Source: Luteolibacter pohnpeiensis
GTDB taxonomy: Bacteria > Verrucomicrobiota > Verrucomicrobiia > Verrucomicrobiales > Akkermansiaceae
DNA length: 64,000 bases
Direction: 5' to 3'
Assembly: GCF_016595435.1 (NCBI RefSeq)
Contig: NZ_JAENIJ010000015.1
Location: 1-64,000, forward strand
This document shows positions 4,392-55,778 of this stretch, in pieces. Below the pieces are notes generated by a model. The model worked only from the letters and a program-made list of their open reading frames with translations. It ran no database searches and was not told the origin of the DNA. Every line of letters starts with the position of its first letter. Positions within the stretch are counted from its first letter, which is position 1. The position numbers and the translations under genes were made by a program.

Positions 4392-4469
4392 GCAGGCCAT
4401 AGCCGAAGATCCGCGCCGACTTTTTGTTTGACCCGGGCTTTCCTCCAATCCTAGCTCTTGGCTAAACGT

Positions 4470-5150
4470 ATGGCCAAAACTCAAAAAAACGGATTCACCC
4501 TCGTTGAACTACTCGTGGTGATTGTGATCATCGCCGTGCTGGGCACGATGAGCGCTATTATCGGTCCAAAAATTCTCAAAAAAGGGCGTCAATCCGGCTC
4601 GGTTGCCAACATGCGGCAGCTCAATACCATCCTGCATTCCTACGCCGCAGATCATTCGAACAAACTGCCAGCTCCAGTTTACATGAGTGACAATGATCAG
4701 GAAATCTACTGGCACATGATCCTCCAACAAGAGATTTCCGGGGATTCCTTGGACAAGCTGATGGATGATAAATGGTGGAAGCAAAATGACAGCCTGCTGG
4801 TCAATCCATTGGTCACAAAAAGCAAAATCACCCACAAAAACGTCGGCTATGGCATGAATGCCGCCATCGCCCAGAACATCGCCAAAAGTCGGGATGAAGA
4901 TCTCACCTTGGAAGATGCGGTTTACACCCAAGTCAATCTCAACACCATCTCTGACGAAACGCAGACACCGATCATCGCCCCATTCTGGCACTGGGCCTAT
5001 GTGATCACAGAGGATAACGTCAGTAATCCTAAATGGGAGGAAATTTCGGTAACTGGTAAAATCCCGATTCTATTTCTGGATGGCCACACGGATCTCATGA
5101 CACCACGGGAATACCTCTCCAAGCATCTGGACCAGAAGCCACAGCGCTAA
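4470..5150 (+). CDS. Prepilin-like secreted/anchored protein (type IV pilin N-methylation motif)
   Basis: The protein has 226 residues. It starts with a short basic leader and a class III signal (NG|FTLVELLVVIVIIAVLG), so prepilin peptidase should cut after the glycine and methylate the new phenylalanine. The following hydrophobic helix would hold it in the inner membrane or in a pseudopilus. The C-terminus has FLDGHTDLMTP, resembling the H-x-DG region of the abundant DUF1559/prepilin-like proteins of Planctomycetes and Verrucomicrobia. No pilus or type II secretion gene lies nearby. The start is the ATG at 4470; a TTG at 4458 would only lengthen the leader. tsaE starts 37 bp downstream. Function beyond a pseudopilin-like role is unknown. 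Confidence 0.75.
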   Translation: MAKTQKNGFTLVELLVVIVIIAVLGTMSAIIGPKILKKGRQSGSVANMRQLNTILHSYAADHSNKLPAPVYMSDNDQEIYWHMILQQEISGDSLDKLMDDKWWKQNDSLLVNPLVTKSKITHKNVGYGMNAAIAQNIAKSRDEDLTLEDAVYTQVNLNTISDETQTPIIAPFWHWAYVITEDNVSNPKWEEISVTGKIPILFLDGHTDLMTPREYLSKHLDQKPQR

Positions 5151-46208: not shown

Positions 46209-48581
46209 ATGGCCAGCTTAACTCCCTCCCTCACCCTCAAAGGAGCGACATTACTATCCACCCTGTTGTTTTCAGCGAATGCAATCGCCTGGACGCCACG
46301 GGTTTATACCGATGATCCATCAGACTCGGTAAGTTCAGGATTTACCGTGGATACTTATGACCGGAATGACGTGGTCTCTTTTTGGCATGGAGTTTACCAG
46401 GCTTCGGAAAACTATCGTAGTCACGAGGCATTTATTAACTTAGGTGCATCCACCATGGGTGAGCCCGGCCCGGAATACTTAAACTTAGTTCGCGATTGCG
46501 AGCGACGTTTAAATTACTTTAGAGCTATGGCAGGAGTATCTGCGGATATTCAGTTAAATACGGCTTCTACCGTTCGCATCGATACCGACGATACCTATAA
46601 GCCGGCCGACACGACGACCAAAGCCACCGCCGCGCAAGCTTCTGCGACCATGATCGCGGCGACCTACAGCTCCCCCACTGCGTCTGGAAATGCTGCGAGC
46701 GGGCTGAACCACGACCCGGTGCCTGCGCAGTGCGTCGGCTGGAGCACCATCGCCTGGAATGGCAATGCCAAATCCAACCTCACTTACGGCTTCTACGGAC
46801 CGGCAGCGATCAATGCCTTCATGCGGGAGGACTACGCAAACACGACCGGCGAAAACGATCGGGTCGGTCACCGCCGTTTTGTCCTGTCTCCGAACGCAAC
46901 GGATTTCTCCACCGGAAATACCCCGGGCTACTGGAACTCCGACACATTTACTCCACGGCCGCCGACCAGCGCTTTGTATGTTCTGCAAAAACCGGACGAG
47001 GTTCAATCGGCCACCGGAACCGGCTTTTTCACTTTCCCGAATGAGGGCTACTTTCCGGCCCCAATCAACTCGCCTTATTGGTCATGCAGCCATCCCGGCG
47101 CCGATTTTTCCAACGCGACCGTTTACATGACTGTCGAGGGTGGCTCGCGGATCAAAATGAATGCCGTCGGGGACAACCGTTACGCAAATCCGGCAATCGT
47201 CTGGCAAGTCACCGGCGACATGGCAGCGACCGATCTGATCGAAGATCGCCACTGTGTGGTCGAGATTGAAGGCATCGAGGGAGATGGCGTTCCATCATCG
47301 TTTTCCTACCCGGTCACGCTGATCAACCCCAACGTTGTGACGATTCCACAAACCGTATTGGGCAGCGCCGAACCATTTTTGCCAGCCACGCCGAAATATT
47401 ATTTCGAATGGTCCAGCCAAGTCGAAGCCATGGAAATTTCCACTTTCCGCGATGCTCCCGGCAATTGGATCGAGACAGCAGAGGAAGAATCGGCCACCGT
47501 GATCAACAGCACCGATTCCACCTACGATTTCCGCACAACGGTGAATTATCCGGCTTACAGCGTTTTCACCGGGATCAATGGCAGCAAGGTGTTCCATCTC
47601 ACTTTCCCGTATCTATTTGATCCGGTCGTAAACCGCCCGCCGGAACAAAGCTTTGAGCTGGATCGGGAGATTTTCACTTCCAGTGGTTCGACCCTCACTT
47701 TCCTATACAAGCGTGGTCTGATGACTCCGGACAGTATTCTGACGGTTGAAGCCAGCACCAATGCAGGCTCCACCTGGACCGCAATTGGCCAACCGATTGT
47801 AGGGATCAACAACCCGGACACCGCTATCAAAACCTGGTCCGGTCAGCTTCCAAACACCGATGAGCCGGTCCGCGTGCGATTCCGCTACCATGCGGAACCC
47901 TATAAATCGGTTTACTCGCATCACCTGTATCCCACTTATCCGACAGGTATTTTCATCGATGATATTTCCACGACGAACACCGTAATGCTGGAACTGCTCA
48001 AGCGGAATCCGATCGAGCGTGGAACCACCAGCTTTGCCCTGAGTTCGGATTTCACCGGAGAAGAACTGGAAGCAGGAGAGACCGTCCACTTGCGCATGCA
48101 TGTGAAACTCGGCAACCGCTGGTTCCCTTACGGGCCATTCAATACCATCACCCCCACCACCAATCCGAAGCAGGGCTTTGATGCATGGATCGAATACAAC
48201 TTCCCATTCCTCACCAAAGGATTCGCTGGCGACGATACCGGTGACGGCGTGCCAAACGGCGTGAAATACGCCTTCAGCCTCGACCCTCTCAAGCCAGGAT
48301 CCCTTGCAAACACCATTGAGGTCGAAGAAGTGGAGCCGAATATCTCGTCAAAAGGTTCATTCCTGGACGCAACCGAATCACGACTCGTGCTCCGCCAGCC
48401 TCTGCCAGAGGTCAAGGACGGCATCACCTATTCAGCCGAATGGTCGGACGATCTCGTGAACTGGTCCGAGGAAGGCGTGGAAGTGACTCTCACCGATGGC
48501 GAAGCGGTGGCGCGTGCGCCATCAGCACCCACCGGCACCACCAAGTCACGATTTCTCCGCTGGGCGATCCACGAGAATTAA
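46209..48581 (+). CDS. Large secreted CAP (SCP/PR-1)-domain protein with verrucomicrobial C-terminal module
   Basis: This 790-residue protein has a signal peptide (about 1-28). Residues about 75-260 resemble a CAP domain: the start LVRDCERRLNYFRAMAGV and a GHRRFVLSP motif near 220. The middle (about 260-650) is beta-rich and unassigned. The C-terminus (about 656-790) has the pattern FDAWIEYN, GDGVPNGVKYAFSLDP, EWSDDLVNWS and RFLRW, which also ends the GH85 enzyme in this window; it may be a secretion or surface-attachment module. CAP proteins have various roles, and I cannot assign one. It overlaps mazG tail-to-tail by 4 bp. Confidence 0.75.
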   Translation: MASLTPSLTLKGATLLSTLLFSANAIAWTPRVYTDDPSDSVSSGFTVDTYDRNDVVSFWHGVYQASENYRSHEAFINLGASTMGEPGPEYLNLVRDCERRLNYFRAMAGVSADIQLNTASTVRIDTDDTYKPADTTTKATAAQASATMIAATYSSPTASGNAASGLNHDPVPAQCVGWSTIAWNGNAKSNLTYGFYGPAAINAFMREDYANTTGENDRVGHRRFVLSPNATDFSTGNTPGYWNSDTFTPRPPTSALYVLQKPDEVQSATGTGFFTFPNEGYFPAPINSPYWSCSHPGADFSNATVYMTVEGGSRIKMNAVGDNRYANPAIVWQVTGDMAATDLIEDRHCVVEIEGIEGDGVPSSFSYPVTLINPNVVTIPQTVLGSAEPFLPATPKYYFEWSSQVEAMEISTFRDAPGNWIETAEEESATVINSTDSTYDFRTTVNYPAYSVFTGINGSKVFHLTFPYLFDPVVNRPPEQSFELDREIFTSSGSTLTFLYKRGLMTPDSILTVEASTNAGSTWTAIGQPIVGINNPDTAIKTWSGQLPNTDEPVRVRFRYHAEPYKSVYSHHLYPTYPTGIFIDDISTTNTVMLELLKRNPIERGTTSFALSSDFTGEELEAGETVHLRMHVKLGNRWFPYGPFNTITPTTNPKQGFDAWIEYNFPFLTKGFAGDDTGDGVPNGVKYAFSLDPLKPGSLANTIEVEEVEPNISSKGSFLDATESRLVLRQPLPEVKDGITYSAEWSDDLVNWSEEGVEVTLTDGEAVARAPSAPTGTTKSRFLRWAIHEN

Positions 48582-49390
48582 CCGCCGGCCTGCTTCACCG
48601 CTTCCCACGCACTTTCCATTTGGCCAGGCGTGGCCGATTCGAGAGTGTGTCCTTGGGACTTGAGCAGCTGCTCCATTTTGCCAAAGCGGGTTTCGAATTT
48701 TGCATTCGCCGTCGCCATGAGCACCTCGGGATCCGCACCGCGAAAGCGCGCGAGATTCACCACCGAAAACATCAGATCTCCCAGCTCTTCTGAAACCGCG
48801 GGCAAATCCTGGGCATCCACGGCAGATTGCAGCTCGATCAATTCCTCACGAATCTTGGCGATGACGCCGGTTTCCACCGGCCAATCGAAGCCAACCTTGG
48901 CGGCTTTCTTCTGCAACTTCGCCGCCCGCAGCAACGCAGGCAAGCCTTTGCCAACACCGTGCAGGTAGGGTTTTTCACCATCACCTTTTTCCGCCCGCTT
49001 GATCTGATCCCATTGCTGAAGTACGGCATCTGTCGTAGCGGCAGCGCTCGTGCCGAAAACGTGAGGATGTCGGCGGACGAGTTTGTCGCAAATTCCGCGA
49101 GCGACATCGTCCAGATTGTAACGACCTGCTTCCTGCGAAATTTCGCTATGGAACACGACCTGGAGCAGCAGATCGCCCAGCTCCTCCTTCATGTGATCGA
49201 AGTCCTCACGCTGAATCGCATCGACCGTTTCGTAAGCTTCCTCGATTAGATTGGAAACCAGCGATTGGTGGGATTGTTCCGCATCCCATGGGCAGCCGCC
49301 TGGTGCACGCAGGCGATGCATGATGGCGCGCAGTCGGTCGATCTGCGAGGCATCATCCGGGCAATTCATCATTTCCTGATCTGTCATCAT
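48578..49390 (-). CDS. mazG: Nucleoside triphosphate pyrophosphohydrolase MazG
   Basis: MazG hydrolyses NTPs/dNTPs to monophosphates and pyrophosphate. The 270 residues show two MazG repeats: CPWDAEQSHQSLVSNLIEEAYE with EELGDLLLQVVFHSEI, and a second with IREELIELQSA and EELGDLMFSVVNLARF. The EExxE-x-DxxF-type metal-binding acids are present. An ATG at 49387 is an equally likely start. The start overlaps the rhomboid stop by 4 bp. Confidence 0.92.
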   Translation of the reverse strand: MMTDQEMMNCPDDASQIDRLRAIMHRLRAPGGCPWDAEQSHQSLVSNLIEEAYETVDAIQREDFDHMKEELGDLLLQVVFHSEISQEAGRYNLDDVARGICDKLVRRHPHVFGTSAAATTDAVLQQWDQIKRAEKGDGEKPYLHGVGKGLPALLRAAKLQKKAAKVGFDWPVETGVIAKIREELIELQSAVDAQDLPAVSEELGDLMFSVVNLARFRGADPEVLMATANAKFETRFGKMEQLLKSQGHTLESATPGQMESAWEAVKQAGG

Positions 49391-50256
49391 GAGTCGGACT
49401 TTTTGCCTATCGAGGCACGGTTTAATTTTTCTCTTTCCTCAGCAGTGATGCTGTGGATGCCCTCACGCGAAATTTTATCCAGAATGCGATCCACCTCCGA
49501 ATCACGCTCAAGATTCACACTGGTGCGAGGCTTCAATTTCGCCTCGGGACGGAAACTGAATCGCTTCGGCCGAATGATCTCGACCTCTTTTTCATGCTTC
49601 TTCGCCCAACCGAGTAGAATCGGATATTTGACCAGGATGAATCCAAGGATGGCACCTCCCAGATGGCCTGCTTCGCCACCTGCGTTGCTCAGATCGAAAA
49701 CGATTTTCACCACCGCGATCAGCAAAACAGCCAAAGCCATCTGCCGGATGGAAAGTTCGATCGGAGGAAAAATGAGCATCGCCCGTAAATTCGGAGCAAT
49801 GATCGCAATCCCGACCAAGATGCCATAGATGCCAGCTGAAGCACCTACCAATCCACCAAAGAGGTCCGTGGGAAGCACGTGCAGCAGCGTCAGCAGCGAA
49901 TAAAATAAAGCGCCTGCCGCTCCACAAAGGAGATAAAATACCAAAAAACGCCTCGCCCCCCACCAGCGTTCCATCCAGGGGCCGAAGAAGTAGATTCCGA
50001 TCGAGTTGAATAGCACGTGGGCAACGCTGCCGTGCAAAAACTGGAAGGTGATGAGCTGCCAGATCTTCCCTTGAAGAATGGATGAACTGATGGTGAAGGC
50101 ACCTAAATTCCTCAATCGACCCTGGAACCACAGAATATCCAGCAGATATACCCCGATATTGATGATCAATAGCCACTTAACCACCGGTGTCAGCGTCCCA
50201 GTCGGCGCGGAGCGCCTTGTTTCCGTCCGCGAATAATCTCGATCAGCTGCTCCCAT
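49387..50256 (-). CDS. Rhomboid family intramembrane serine protease
   Basis: The protein has 289 residues and about six transmembrane helices. The catalytic dyad is visible: Ser in VGASAGIYG (GxSx motif) and His in [13 protein letters not shown]; the [17 protein letters not shown] loop provides the conserved HGSxxH pair. The C-terminal 80 residues are soluble and basic, then acidic. The start is the ATG at 50256; upstream residues are not conserved. Rhomboids cleave membrane proteins, with unknown targets in most bacteria. mazG is coupled by overlap; pckG is divergent. Confidence 0.9.
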
Positions 50257-50404
50257 GGATTCACCGGGGTTAGCACGGCAATCCGCCCATCGCAAGACCC
50301 ACCGCCGCAATTTCGATCAGATCCGACGCAAATCGGCCAAATTCCCCCGATTCGGCGTCATCTCGTTGCAAACTGGTGCATCTCAGGTTCAAGATAACCA
50401 CAGC

Positions 50405-52246
50405 ATGAGCAAAATGACCTCCACCAGCCACGCACCGCTTCAGAAATGGATCGATAAAATGATCACACTCTGCACCCCGGATGCCGTCGAATGGTGTGAA
50501 GGATCAAACGCGGAGTGGGACCGCCTTTCCAATCTGCTGGTTAAATCGGGAACCTTCACCCGCCTCAATCCTGAGAAGCGACCGAATTCATTCCTCGCGC
50601 GCTCCGCCCCATCCGATGTTGCCCGCGTGGAGGAACGCACGTTCATCTGCACCCGCCGAGCCGACGAAGCCGGTCCCACCAACAACTGGGCGGAGCCAAC
50701 CGAAATGCGCGAGCTTTTGCAGGGAAAATTCCAAGGCTGCATGAAAGGCCGGACGATGTATATCATCCCATTTTGCATGGGGCCGATTGATTCCCCATTG
50801 GCCAAAATTGGCGTGCAGGTGACCGACAGTCCTTACGCCGTTCTCAACATGAAAATCATGTGCAGCATCGGCTCCAGCGTTCTGAAGCGGCTTGAGGAAG
50901 AATGGTCCGGTGTTGCGCCAAAGAAACGCCACGGTCACAAGTTTTTCATTCCGTGCCTCCATTCGGTTGGGGCGCCACTTGAGCCCGGGCAACAGGACGT
51001 GCCCTGGCCGTGCAACGAGGACAAATACATCGTCCATTTCGTCGAAACCCGTGAAATCATGTCCTACGGTTCCGGCTACGGCGGCAATGCGTTGCTTGGA
51101 AAAAAATGCCTCGCCCTCCGCATCGCATCCAACATCGCGCGCGAACATCAATGGATGGCGGAGCACATGCTCATCGTCGGTCTCGAAGCTCCGGATGGCA
51201 CCAAAACCTACGTCACCGCAGCCTTTCCTTCTGCCTGCGGAAAAACGAATCTAGCAATGATCGTGCCGCCGGAGTCCTACCAAAAAGCCGGTTGGAAAAC
51301 GTCGATCGTCGGTGACGACATCGCCTGGCTGTGGCCGCACGAGGATGGCAAGCTGCATGCGATCAACCCGGAAACCGGCTACTTCGGCGTCGCACCCGGA
51401 ACCGCATACGAAACGAATCCGATCGCCATGGATTCGATGCTGGAAAACACGATTTTCACCAACGTCGCACTCACCGACGATGGCGATGTCTGGTGGGAAG
51501 GCATGACCAAAGAAGCCCCCGCTCACCTGATCGACTGGACCGGCCAGGACTGGACACCGGATTGCGGACGTCCAGCGGCACATCCGAATGCCCGTTTCAC
51601 CGCGCCTGCCTCGCAATGTCCGACCATTGATCCGCAATGGCAAAATCCCGATGGAGTGCCCATCGAAGGGATCATTTTCGGCGGACGCCGTGCCACAACC
51701 ATGCCGCTGGTTTATCAAGCATACAACTGGTCTCACGGCGTCTACATTGGCGCGACCATGGGTTCGGAAATGACCGCTGCAGCGGCAGGCACGATCGGCA
51801 AAGTTCGCCGTGATCCGATGGCGATGTTGCCGTTCGCAGGATACAACATGGGTGAGTATTTCGCCCATTGGTTGGAGATGCGGCGTTACCTCAAGCACCT
51901 CCCGCGGTTTTTCCATGTAAACTGGTTTCGCAAAGATGAGAACGGAAAATTCCTTTGGCCTGGATTCGGCGAAAACATGCGCGTTCTTGAATGGATCGTT
52001 AAACGCTGCCACGGCACCGCTGCCGGGCATGAAACCCAGATCGGCTGGACCCCGGCACCGGAGGATTTCGATATCTCCAGCATGCAGAATTACAGCCGGG
52101 AACAATTCGAAGCGGTCATGAACTATCACCGTGACGAATGGAAAGCGGAGCTGGTCAGTCAGGCTGAGTTTTTCCTCGATCTCTACGACCATCTGCCAAA
52201 AGAGCTCATTTTCCAGCGTGAGCTCCTGGCGGCACGGCTTGCCTGA
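50405..52246 (+). CDS. pckG: Phosphoenolpyruvate carboxykinase (GTP)
   Basis: The enzyme makes phosphoenolpyruvate from oxaloacetate with GTP, the first step of gluconeogenesis. The 613 residues match the GTP-class length and motifs: [12 protein letters not shown] (kinase-1a P-loop with the hyper-reactive Cys), VGDDIAW (kinase-2), IIFGGRR and the NWFRKDE... nucleotide loop region. The ATG at 50405 begins the conserved [19 protein letters not shown]; the frame is open further up but unlike. Divergent from the rhomboid gene; GH85 gene follows by 52 bp. Confidence 0.96.
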
Positions 52247-52298
52247 ATCGCCTTTCGTTGCTTGAATTGCGGCCCCGAACCGCAATCAAGCACTATCA

Positions 52299-55200
52299 AT
52301 GATTTACATTCCCGGGCGGAGAATTTCCGCTCTCCGCGTCTTTCCCCTCGCGCTCGCCAGCAGCCTATTTGCCGCCACATTTTCGCACGCCGCCGAAAAA
52401 AGTTTCTCTCAATTCCGCTTCACTCCGACGCGGTTGAGGGACAGCTCGTCGCCGAACTCGGTGCAGGTTTCCGAATTCCGATTTCTTCTCGGTGGCAATC
52501 TCGTCGATCTCTCCAGCGCGACCGCAGTCAACGCCGCAGGCACCTCGCCCGCAACCGAAGGGCCTGAAAAGTTGATCGACGGCAGCACCGATACCAAATG
52601 GCTGAACTACGCGAAACAAGGTGTCATCATCCGCTTTCCCGAAATCACCACCATCGATGCTTATTCGTTTTCGACCGCCAATGATTCGCAGGAACGCGAT
52701 CCCGGAAACTGGAAGTTGGAAGGCAGCAACGATGGCACGAATTGGTTTTTGTTAGATGTTAGAATCAACGGCTCCGTGCCGAGCGACCGCAAAGCAAGCA
52801 CCGATACGTTTTCGCTGCCGGTGACCGTGCCGCCGTATGCTTCGTTCTGGCATCCGGACTACTTGCTGAAGTGGACACCGGAGGCGGACCCGGATTCCGA
52901 TTTCAACCGTGCCTCGATTCCGATCACTTCGCGGATGGCAAATCCGGCGTTGAAGGTGAATTTCAACGCTCGATCCAACGAGGCGAAGATCACGATTTTA
53001 TCGTCATTTGGCTCGACCAGTTTCCTGCCGTCGCAAGGGGCGAAGGTGGCGCATTTCAATGCTTACACGGGTTGGCAATACACGGACAAATTGGTGTTTT
53101 GGGGCGGTTCTGCAGGTGAAGGAATCATCCTCGCACCCGCGGCCCCGATCGTCGATGCCGCCCACCGCAACGGCGTGCCGGTTTTGGGAAATGTGTTTTT
53201 CCCGCCGAACGTTTATGGCGGCCAGTTCCACTGGGTGCAGACGTTTTTGCAGAAGAGTGGCGATGCTTTTCCTGTCGCCGACAAGATGATCGAGGTCGCC
53301 CGCTACTACGGTTTTGACGGCTGGTTCATCAACCAGGAGACCGGTGGAGGTAGCACTGCTGACGCAACGAACATGCGGGATTTTATTTCGTATTTCAAAG
53401 CGCAGGCCCCAGATCTGCAGATCATGTGGTATGACGCCATGACCCGCACCGGCAGCATCAGCTGGCAGAACGCGCTTACCTCGGAAAACGAGCAATTCGT
53501 GAAGAGCGATGGCAACGCAATCGCCGACAGCATGTTTCTCAATTTCTGGTGGAATAGTGACATGCTTTCCAGCACCCGCAGCAGGGCTTTGGGATTGGGA
53601 CTCGATCCTTACTCGATCTATGCAGGGATCGACGTGGAAAGCGCCGGCACGGGAACTTCGGTTTCCTGGGACGCGATTTTCCCGAACCGCTCCCAACACC
53701 GCGTTTCCGTTGCATTCTATGGCGAGCAGGCGTTGTTCCGGAACTCAGGAAACCCCGGCCAATTCCGGCAAAACGAACTCCGCTTCTGGTCGGGACAAAA
53801 TGCGGATCCATCGAATACCTCCACCACGGAAAGCTGGAAAGGCATGGCGAACTACGTGCCCGCGCAGTCGCCGTTGGAAAAACTGCCGTTCGTCACCAAC
53901 TTCAATCGTGGCCAGGGCGATCGCTATTTGATCGATGGCCAAGTGGTATCAACCTCGGGCTGGAACAACCTGAGCCTTCAGGATGTCCTGCCAACCTGGA
54001 GATGGATCGTTTCCTCCACGGGGACGAAATTGACTCCCGCACTGCTCTTTGAAGATAGCTACTATGGAGGTAGTTCTTTGAAAATTTCCGGTCAGCTGGA
54101 CGCCACCAATGATATCAAACTCTACGCCGCCAGCTTGCCTGTCAGTGCGGATACGAAATTCAAATTGGTTTACAAAACCGGCACCGCTTCGGCGCCATCG
54201 AACCTAAAACTCGCCATCGCATTCGAGGACGCGCCAAGTTCTCCGGTTTACTACGATGTTGGCAGTACTTCGACCAATGGCTGGAACACCGTGACCTTCG
54301 ATCTCGGTTCACACGCTGGTCAAAAAATCGCGACCATTGGCGTGCGCTGCTCATCCACAAGTGTGATTGAAAACTACGTGGTCCGGCTTGGCCAATTCGC
54401 GATCTACGATGGCACGCCGACTCCACCCGCCGCCGTCACGGATTTGCGCATCATACAAAACGATCCAAGCACGTTGGATAACACCAACCTGCGCATCAAG
54501 TGGAGCGCATCCTCTACCGGGAACATCTATTACTACAACGTTTTCCAGCGACTCGCTGATGGTTCACGGCTCTGGCTTGGCGCAACTCCGGCGAATGCAT
54601 TCTACGCGGCAAATGTCGCCCGCTCAGGCAATCAATCGTCGGCCATGATCGAGGTCGAAGCCGTTGGAAGTGACTTCGCTATCTCAAGCGCCGCCGAAGT
54701 CGCTGCCGCGTTTCCACCACAACCCGAGGCGAATTTCCAACTCACCGGCACCATCATTGGCACGGAAGGCTCATGGTCGAATCTCGGCGACGTCCGGGAA
54801 AACGTGTTCGATGGAAACTTCAACACCGCCTTCGACGCTCCGGATGAATTCGGCGCGTGGGTCGGACTCGATCTCGGCTCTGCCGCACAAATCACCGCGC
54901 TTCGTTACGCACCACGCTCTGGCTTTGCTGCACGCATGGTGGGCGGAGTATTTGAAGGTGCCAACTCCGTTGACTTCAGCGACGCCGTCACCATTTACAC
55001 CATTCCCGATCAACCCCCGGTCGGTTCCTTCACTTCAGTCCCTGTTACCAATCCGCACACTTTCCGCTACCTTCGCTATCGGTCCGATCCGAATTGCAAC
55101 ATCGCGGAACTGGAAGTCTACGGACTGCGACTGCCGGATACGCCGGGAACGATTGTGGCTTCAACCGACCCAGGCGGTGCCTTGCTCACCTGGAACACCA

Positions 55201-55778
55201 CACCATGGGCCACTTCCTACCGACTCGAACGCGGCACCTCAGCAAGCGGTCCGTTCACGGTGATCGCGGACCAACTTGGCTCAACCTCTTACACCGATCC
55301 GGATGCACCTGCAGAGACCGAGTTATTTTACCGAGTCATCGCCATCAATTCGCTTGGAGAAAGTTCTGCTTCGGCAGTCACCCCACTTGCCGCGAATCTG
55401 ATTGGCTTTGCCGCCTGGCAGCAAAGTCAATTCGCCGATGAGACCGATGAATCCATCATCGGCCAGCTAGCCGATCCAGATCACGATCAAATCCCGAATC
55501 TTCTGGAGTATGCACTCGGCACCGATCCTGCGGTTGCCAATCCGCCTCTGGAGCCAGGGGTCGATGAGGCAACACTCTCGCTAACCTACACGCAAAATGC
55601 CGATGCCACCGACATCAGCCTGAAAGCCCAGTGGTCGGACGATTTGCAAACCTGGAGCGACGTCGGCGTCATTTACGAAACACTGTCAGAACAAGCTCAA
55701 ACCCAGACCATTCGGGCCACCGTAGCGATCGGAAGTGGCGGCCATCGCTTCCTGCGACTCCAAGCGGTTTCCGAGTAA
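52299..55778 (+). CDS. Secreted GH85 endo-beta-N-acetylglucosaminidase with discoidin-like and C-terminal modules
   Basis: This 1159-residue protein should cleave the GlcNAc-GlcNAc core of N-glycans. Residues 1-31 are a signal peptide. A F5/8 type C-like domain lies at about 35-178 (LIDGSTDTKWLNY, WKLEGSNDGTNWFLLDVR). The GH85 catalytic domain begins near 183 (FWHPDYLLKW) and has GFDGWFINQE (338-347), with the catalytic Asn345 and Glu347. A second discoidin-like region (about 835-950) and a fibronectin III-like segment (about 945-1020) precede the C-terminal module at 1037-1159 (DPDHDQIPNLLEYALGTDP, WSDDLQTWSD, RFLRL), shared with the CAP protein. Confidence 0.88.
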   Translation: MIYIPGRRISALRVFPLALASSLFAATFSHAAEKSFSQFRFTPTRLRDSSSPNSVQVSEFRFLLGGNLVDLSSATAVNAAGTSPATEGPEKLIDGSTDTKWLNYAKQGVIIRFPEITTIDAYSFSTANDSQERDPGNWKLEGSNDGTNWFLLDVRINGSVPSDRKASTDTFSLPVTVPPYASFWHPDYLLKWTPEADPDSDFNRASIPITSRMANPALKVNFNARSNEAKITILSSFGSTSFLPSQGAKVAHFNAYTGWQYTDKLVFWGGSAGEGIILAPAAPIVDAAHRNGVPVLGNVFFPPNVYGGQFHWVQTFLQKSGDAFPVADKMIEVARYYGFDGWFINQETGGGSTADATNMRDFISYFKAQAPDLQIMWYDAMTRTGSISWQNALTSENEQFVKSDGNAIADSMFLNFWWNSDMLSSTRSRALGLGLDPYSIYAGIDVESAGTGTSVSWDAIFPNRSQHRVSVAFYGEQALFRNSGNPGQFRQNELRFWSGQNADPSNTSTTESWKGMANYVPAQSPLEKLPFVTNFNRGQGDRYLIDGQVVSTSGWNNLSLQDVLPTWRWIVSSTGTKLTPALLFEDSYYGGSSLKISGQLDATNDIKLYAASLPVSADTKFKLVYKTGTASAPSNLKLAIAFEDAPSSPVYYDVGSTSTNGWNTVTFDLGSHAGQKIATIGVRCSSTSVIENYVVRLGQFAIYDGTPTPPAAVTDLRIIQNDPSTLDNTNLRIKWSASSTGNIYYYNVFQRLADGSRLWLGATPANAFYAANVARSGNQSSAMIEVEAVGSDFAISSAAEVAAAFPPQPEANFQLTGTIIGTEGSWSNLGDVRENVFDGNFNTAFDAPDEFGAWVGLDLGSAAQITALRYAPRSGFAARMVGGVFEGANSVDFSDAVTIYTIPDQPPVGSFTSVPVTNPHTFRYLRYRSDPNCNIAELEVYGLRLPDTPGTIVASTDPGGALLTWNTTPWATSYRLERGTSASGPFTVIADQLGSTSYTDPDAPAETELFYRVIAINSLGESSASAVTPLAANLIGFAAWQQSQFADETDESIIGQLADPDHDQIPNLLEYALGTDPAVANPPLEPGVDEATLSLTYTQNADATDISLKAQWSDDLQTWSDVGVIYETLSEQAQTQTIRATVAIGSGGHRFLRLQAVSE

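Follow-up and report, generated by a model that had tools for sequence, protein, structure and literature searches.

The window analysed here is a 64,000-nucleotide stretch of DNA from Luteolibacter pohnpeiensis (Verrucomicrobiota; RefSeq assembly GCF_016595435.1, contig NZ_JAENIJ010000015.1, positions 1 to 64,000), in which two genes on the forward strand encode unrelated, putatively exported proteins that end in the same C-terminal module: a 790-residue protein of unassigned family and a 1159-residue endo-beta-N-acetylglucosaminidase of family GH85. The features of both genes are listed below, with each module copy scored against the family profile and against a leave-out profile built from the 91 other tails, both window tails being excluded.

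46209–48581, + strand: open reading frame (ORF) of the 790-residue exported protein, family unassigned
46209–46289, + strand: predicted signal peptide of the 790-residue protein, MASLTPSLTLKGATLLSTLLFSANAIA (home-made heuristic predictor)
48177–48578, + strand: C-terminal module, copy 1 (profile match of 83.7 bits, ending one residue ahead of the stop; leave-out profile, 51.7 bits)
48231–48266, + strand: TSP3-type loop of copy 1, DDTGDGVPNGVK, partly degenerate (position counted by hand in an alignment of both tails)
48552–48578, + strand: terminal strand of copy 1, FLRWAIHEN-stop (from the sequence; F and R of FxR are kept in at least 90% of the 93-tail alignment)
52299–55778, + strand: GH85 endo-beta-N-acetylglucosaminidase, 1159 residues (PF03644 at E = 1.3e-80, two F5/8C stretches and GH85_C)
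52299–52391, + strand: predicted signal peptide of the GH85 enzyme (home-made heuristic predictor)
53037–53927, + strand: GH85 catalytic domain (PF03644 over residues 247–543)
55158–55385, + strand: FN3 domain directly ahead of the module in the GH85 enzyme (residues ~15–90 of an AlphaFold2 (AF2) model against FN3 folds: best Z 10.1, root-mean-square deviation (rmsd) 2.1, 76 aligned)
55407–55775, + strand: C-terminal module, copy 2 (profile match of 116.2 bits, ending one residue ahead of the stop; leave-out profile, 110.7 bits)
55473–55508, + strand: TSP3-type loop of copy 2, DPDHDQIPNLLE (EF-hand-like spacing with D1, D3, D5, N9 and E12 present; position counted by hand)
55545–55775, + strand: beta domain of copy 2, start approximate (hydrophobic alternation in the 93-tail alignment and low-confidence AF2 strands)
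55749–55775, + strand: terminal strand of copy 2, FLRLQAVSE-stop (from the sequence and the placement of the FxR-type motif in the family)

A preliminary description of this DNA had placed a common module at residues 656 and 1037 of the two proteins (positions 48174 and 55407), and both ORFs and both starting points agree with the sequence. The shared motifs occur in the order that it gave (FDAW/FAAW, DTGDGVPN/DPDHDQIPN, YAFSLDP/YALGTDP, WSDDLVNWS/WSDDLQTWS and RFLR/RFLR), with the correction that the D-x-D-G read in the GH85 tail is in fact D-H-D-Q. Its GH85 assignment is borne out by the PF03644 match. Its naming of the 790-residue protein as a CAP-domain protein stays unconfirmed because no Pfam domain could be recognised in this protein; matches were absent from Pfam and NCBIfam at E ≤ 1 and from Pfam at E ≤ 10, a range in which HMMER's filtering removes most matches above about 0.1. 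Relatives of this protein were found at four loci in the searched genome contigs, and the three long ones gave only weak and unrelated Pfam matches. The body of the protein (46209–48000) belongs to a conserved family without a Pfam model, and the relatives at loci L031–L033, in other verrucomicrobial metagenome-assembled genomes, also have a TSP3 plus beta tail at the end.

Compared with each other, the two window tails align at a BLASTP E value of 5e-10 (single comparison). The leave-out scores of 110.7 bits for the GH85 tail and 51.7 bits for the other stand against a best of 11.2 bits among 3890 scored shuffles (4000 made), and across 528 six-frame ORFs of the window the leave-out profile at E ≤ 10 gave further domain matches (3.1, −2.2 and 14.9 bits) within the same two ORFs only. 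This profile is not fully independent, because it was grown from a search begun with the GH85 tail. At the level of sequence, these comparisons confirm that both tails belong to one domain family of about 125 residues, and that the shared tail is real and more widespread than first described. Members have an F-x-x-W segment, followed by a calcium loop of the TSP3 type (DPDGDGxxNLLEYALGxDP) and by a beta domain whose last residues are FLRLxV and about three more.

The position of the module in its carriers was examined across the organism's own genome (4.67 Mb in 254 contigs), where tblastn with the GH85 tail gave 57 matches at E ≤ 10 and a profile from a first alignment of 26 tails gave 89 at E ≤ 0.01. 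The match of the 26-tail profile reached the beta part (position 88 or beyond) in 67 distinct ORFs, a number that includes a few uncertain cases (C203:205, and C199:37249, which is interrupted by a stop codon); 60 of the 67 ended within 12 residues of the match and 63 within 30. With a profile from a later alignment of 93 tails, 61 of 63 matches reaching the last strand lay within 15 residues of the stop codon, the two exceptions being a weak internal match in the 790-residue protein and an N-terminal copy at locus L077. Matches to the TSP3 loop alone were never terminal (0/31), and 29 of the 31 were separated from the end by over 130 residues. Broad internal matching, named in the preliminary description as a sign that would speak against a terminal signal, was thus found for the loop and not for the full module.

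The same pattern was seen outside this genome. Among 121 full-length matches (model positions 20 to 100 covered) from the own genome, the loci of a phylum survey and a 40-genome sample, 120 ended within 12 residues of the end of the frame, and FN3 domains in the fetched ORFs, used as a control, were terminal in 0 of 21 cases. The 40-genome sample, the first listed match of 40 genomes among surveyed relatives, contributed 40 of 40 within 12 residues and 39 within seven. Loci were chosen by profile score and not by position; 28 of the 29 phylum loci were read (L149 was short), and 27 of these ended within six residues past the model and one, L150, 52 residues past it. Another twenty places with low scores, in four other genomes, were picked by hand from the lower part of the list, in regions that also contained a strong neighbour counted before and a match to the loop alone; all twenty lay within six residues of the end. 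Several arrangements were noted alongside these counts: two long open frames of the own genome (L074 and L095, on C174 and C197) carry several spaced TSP3 loops, the stretches read stopping short of their ends; at locus L241 (G088:C1:2286236-2287528) two module-bearing genes stand tail to tail with their matches 184 bases apart; and near-identical module ends lie at contig ends at C178:49842 and C173:61309 (GKWFGRLSVTRD and GKWFGRLSATRQ), which may reflect a repeated gene at which the assembly broke.

Alignment filters (at least 40 bits, at most 15 residues from the end, distinct) were passed by 111 of the 121 full-length matches; 93 were aligned and 18, mainly lower-scoring, were left out, so that the figures for loop and last residue describe the better-scoring terminal copies. 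The 93-tail consensus reads F/Y-x-x-W, aDPDGDGIpNLLEYALGxdP, a short linker, the strands LtlTF and tytVEwStDLttW, a variable stretch, tVtvtvP, krFlRLkV, about three residues and the stop. A regular expression finds, in 69 of the 93 tails, an FxR-type motif whose first residue is the 8th to 10th from the end; the last residue is a proline in 42 and F, W or Y in six. Loop ligands are present at D1 in 78 tails, D3 in 77, D5 in 93, N9 in 88 and E12 in 78, so the loop that the preliminary description likened to a calcium-binding one does have such spacing, and calcium binding is likely in most copies. Calcium is not essential, because some copies have lost the ligands and keep the beta end: eight of nine copies read from genomes that probably belong to Akkermansia show a P-A/S-G-D-G...K loop in which most ligands are missing. 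These copies weaken the idea that binding calcium is the core function, as do two GH85 homologues (L222 and L218, below) that lack the ligands and still keep the C-terminal end.

Carriers of the module are enriched in export signals. A strict signal-peptide score, from a home-made heuristic and not SignalP, was passed by 56 of 65 complete carriers versus 22 of 64 control ORFs of at least 200 residues on the window's contig (Fisher p = 1.2e-9); it replaced a looser version under which 40 of 65 controls were positive. Another hydrophobic segment occurs in three of the 65 carriers, which are large, with a median open frame of 968 residues in the own genome. One of the control ORFs, at window positions 4458–5150, has a prepilin-like N-terminus (GFTLVELLVVIVIIAVLG).

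Surveys in which a limited number of candidates was scored per genome found the module throughout the phylum. The 93-tail profile matched in at least 230 of 387 Verrucomicrobiota genomes and at least 136 of 197 genera, and the 26-tail profile in at least 59 of 115 phylum genomes and at least 133 of 145 relatives, counting genome-level matches at E ≤ 1e-5, of which weak cases may be the TSP3 loop alone. At this threshold six single-contig genomes held at least 127 (150 of 255 candidates scored), at least 116 (150 of 252), 52, 20, 6 and 2 matches, and the likely Akkermansia genomes (one genus, assigned from family and cargo among other clues) held 0–8. One module tail searched against 72,556 plasmid and 50,697 phage records gave no match, and pattern searches of viral contigs gave no relatives.

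The proteins that carry the module are functionally diverse. A Pfam scan of 50 of the 61 own-genome carriers, the number being set by a size limit, matched 70 families at E ≤ 1e-4; the 25 families listed include PATR (nine), Laminin_G_3 (eight), F5/8C (four), SASA esterase (three), PA14 (three), subtilase (two) and CotH (two), as well as GH85, sulfatase and leucine-rich repeat (LRR) families. In classical autotransporters PATR repeats precede a barrel, whereas here they occur in proteins that end with the module. In the last ~620 residues of five likely Akkermansia carriers, sulfatase, PA14 or GLEYA plus BACON domains were present in three, GH18 plus BACON in one and no Pfam match in one. These results accord with the statement in the preliminary description that similar endings occur on many exported verrucomicrobial proteins: the tail sits on many unrelated proteins, almost only at the C-terminus, and its carriers are enriched in signal peptides.

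The module is also retained on one enzyme across families. GH85 was detected in eight of 285 genomes of the class, including that of the window, and the seven homologues from other genomes, in four families, were all read to the stop codon. Six match the profile, five of them at E ≤ 1e-9: L217, L216 and L221 have clear modules (8e-32, 6.4e-22 and 2.4e-18), L219 and L220 degenerate ones (6.8e-10 and 8.8e-10), and L222 a module without calcium ligands (5.5e-4). The seventh, L218, has a beta-only tail ending in FFRLIFP, recognised by eye only and without a profile match.

We compared the module with known families and C-terminal tags. No Pfam or NCBIfam model covers it in the 93 members scanned, a search of the Protein Data Bank by sequence gave nothing significant, and no description of the tail was found in the openly licensed PubMed Central (PMC) papers searched. 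The loop satisfies the DxDxDGxxNxxE calcium pattern of the bacterial TSP3 repeat (PF18884) and shares its DPDGDGxxNLLEYALGxDP form, but that model lacks the beta part, its stand-alone loops are internal, and only seven of the 93 members reach it at E ≤ 0.05. The pattern Y-x-V-E-x-S-x-D-L-x-x-W ... F-x-R-L recalls F5/8C-CBM32 and FN3 beta-sandwiches, but two of the 93 members match F5_F8_type_C at E ≤ 0.05 and the 21 FN3 copies are never terminal. DUF3999 (PF13163) is matched by ten members at E ≤ 0.05 (best 4.6e-5), over 64–71 positions of a 424-position model in the two cases shown, both under the 30-bit cut-off. The pilus-like Amuc_1099 family (NF042425) is matched by nine (best 2.5e-7); a tie to that system was rejected because, in the one member with its range shown, only the 27-residue calcium loop matched.

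Type IX C-terminal domains (TIGR04183 and PF18962) resemble the module in that they are C-terminal, occur on signal-peptide proteins of unrelated function and are numerous per genome; type IX tails have a beta-sandwich character. The module differs in having no sequence match to them and a TSP3 loop in front. PF18962 is absent from the 21 Pfam families matched by the 93 members at E ≤ 0.05 and gave no match in the own genome, in a search whose positive control worked; TIGR04183 is absent from their NCBIfam matches at E ≤ 0.01, which comprise Amuc_1099_fam only, in a library whose holding of TIGR04183 was not separately confirmed. No match to SprA_N (PF14349) was found in the own genome, and the control genomes gave none either. 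Type IX membership is rejected for want of any model match among the families listed, and the type IX comparison drawn in the preliminary description is kept as an analogy.

The other tags differ in their features. The PEP-CTERM/exosortase system (TIGR02595) likewise pairs a C-terminal tag with a signal peptide on many proteins of one genome, and is reported as first met in Verrucomicrobium spinosum, with 65 copies (PMC1569441). In PEP-CTERM, however, a short motif precedes a transmembrane helix and a basic cluster, and a hydrophobic helix (17-residue window, Kyte–Doolittle (KD) ≥ 1.6) is found in none of the 93 module tails. PEP-CTERM occurs at 44 other places in the own genome, on proteins with a median open frame of 271 residues versus 968 for module carriers, and the sole overlap of coordinates is in another reading frame. 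PEP-CTERM was therefore rejected on its features, namely the helix and the different proteins that it marks, and GlyGly-CTERM with rhombosortase on the lack of a hydrophobic helix. Four PEP-CTERM matches (C199:8152, C177:38745, C175:34213 and C111:211168) lie directly upstream of module ORFs on the same strand, at most 116 bases away or overlapping out of frame, which by an informal estimate is more than we would expect from 44 and 61 genes. Type V autotransporters end in a C-terminal beta-barrel, usually with an aromatic last residue; the module has about 125 residues, only six of the 93 tails have an aromatic end, and the 21 Pfam families matched include none of autotransporters, so this class was rejected as well. 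An outer-membrane proteome of Akkermansia lists 23 predicted PEP-CTERM proteins and nine detected autotransporter-barrel proteins, and the part of that paper covered does not mention the module (PMC4960237).

The fold of the module is probably an Ig-like beta-sandwich, to judge from a low-confidence AF2 model of the module alone with seven strands in the beta part. VIA-align matched this model best to Ig-like folds (Z 5.6, rmsd 3.1, 79 aligned), and Foldseek together with VIA-align returned Ig-like and CBM21 sandwiches without significance; Foldseek gave nothing at E ≤ 0.001, and the VIA-align list contains no known secretion-tail fold, an absence that carries no proof. An hhalign comparison placed the beta part over positions 1–70 of a 77-column FN3 profile, roughly to the next-to-last strand (P = 0.034, probability 0.8%). 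An Ig/FN3-like fold minus its last strand is suggested by this register but gains no support from the statistics, and the AF2 model has seven strands instead.

This is one family with a terminal position, enrichment in signal peptides, unrelated cargo, high copy number and phylum-wide presence, and the evidence on position and export is strong. We consider it somewhat probable, on the sequence evidence, that the module is a new class of C-terminal sorting, retention or anchoring domain for large Sec-exported proteins of Verrucomicrobiota, so that the interpretation offered in the preliminary description is partly supported. We rank this reading first because the module is nearly always terminal, sits on unrelated exported cargo, is present in dozens of copies per genome and has been retained on one enzyme across families, and because the accessory FN3 domains in the fetched ORFs lie internally. 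A carrier would cross the inner membrane via its signal peptide; in the periplasm its last ~125 residues would fold into a short helix, a TSP3 loop that calcium stiffens and that serves as a spacer, and an Ig-like beta domain, with the final strand (FLRLxV) exposed at the very C-terminus, where an apparatus of the envelope may recognise it and move the cargo to the cell surface or fix it there. The beta fold, the recognition of the end and the translocation or anchoring are inferred. PEP-CTERM was recognised from the same kind of evidence, starting with V. spinosum (PMC1569441).

More tentatively, it is possible that a dedicated outer-membrane system for export and surface attachment, unrelated to type IX, recognises the module in Verrucomicrobiota, probably including Akkermansia, and serves dozens of large enzymes and adhesins, in some genomes perhaps more than 100. 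The type II secretin was considered as a partner and is not decisive, tracking the module poorly: a GspD-like match was found in 39 of 42 genomes, none over the curated cut-off, the three genomes without it also being module-free, and in the likely Akkermansia genomes it lay mainly over the secretin domain. One such match lies on the window's own contig downstream of the window (C66:90975-92846, L130), in an ORF with a signal-peptide-like start.

Several observations weigh against a sorting or anchoring domain. The clearest non-terminal copy (L077, C177:40746-40931) has the beta part without the TSP3 loop right after a signal peptide; L150 is the exception among the 121 full-length matches; and five further own-genome matches fall in neither the terminal nor the loop-only class, including L083 with 57 residues past the match. 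Only 22 of 40 carriers in the 40-genome sample passed the strict signal-peptide test, eight of the 40 ORFs being cut at a contig end. The AF2 models had a mean predicted local distance difference test (pLDDT) score of 52 for the module alone and 54 with FN3 in front, from five sequences in the alignment, and the low values are probably due to only five sequences being eligible. Mean column identity in the 93-tail alignment is 26%, so that any recognition would have to be structural. The search for partner machinery turned up no clear candidate, as GspD-like secretins also occur in several module-free genomes.

An ordinary accessory domain binding carbohydrate, calcium or the cell envelope, placed last by architecture and served by no dedicated sorting machinery, is rather unlikely as the explanation and survives best among the alternatives. 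TSP3 loops are a common element of adhesins, the beta part bears a weak likeness to beta-sandwiches such as F5/8C-CBM32, several carriers have glycan-active or lectin-like domains, and the N-terminal copy of the beta part would suit a binding role. However, accessory FN3 domains are terminal in none of 21 cases against 120 of 121 for the module, the last motif of the module stands at a near-fixed distance from the last residue, and the module is found on proteases and an LRR protein as well. We think it improbable that the module is a folding or stability cap shielding large exported proteins of several domains against proteolysis in the periplasm or outside the cell; the size of the carriers, the calcium loop and beta domain at the free end and the proline that closes 42 of the 93 aligned tails are consistent with a cap, which by itself does not explain why a single family would serve unrelated folds throughout the phylum, nor why 157 of 387 genomes have no match at E ≤ 1e-5 among the candidates scored. 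A divergent type IX (Por) domain served by a type IX system that has escaped recognition shares the logic of a signal peptide, a C-terminal beta domain and unrelated cargo and has a precedent in Poribacteria, which are reported to have TIGR04183 tails although no Por structural genes were recognised in them (PMC3909097), but it is highly improbable given the absence of TIGR04183 and PF18962 among the family's matches and of PF18962 from the own genome, and the lack of a SprA_N match, the latter shared by the control genomes.

To our knowledge, the way in which polysaccharide-degrading enzymes are placed outside the verrucomicrobial outer membrane is poorly understood. If the module is indeed a sorting or anchoring tag, it would provide a ready list of cargo, with dozens of large proteins per genome, and a handle for finding the machinery, and it would point to extracellular enzymes in genomes from the environment and probably also in those of gut Akkermansia.

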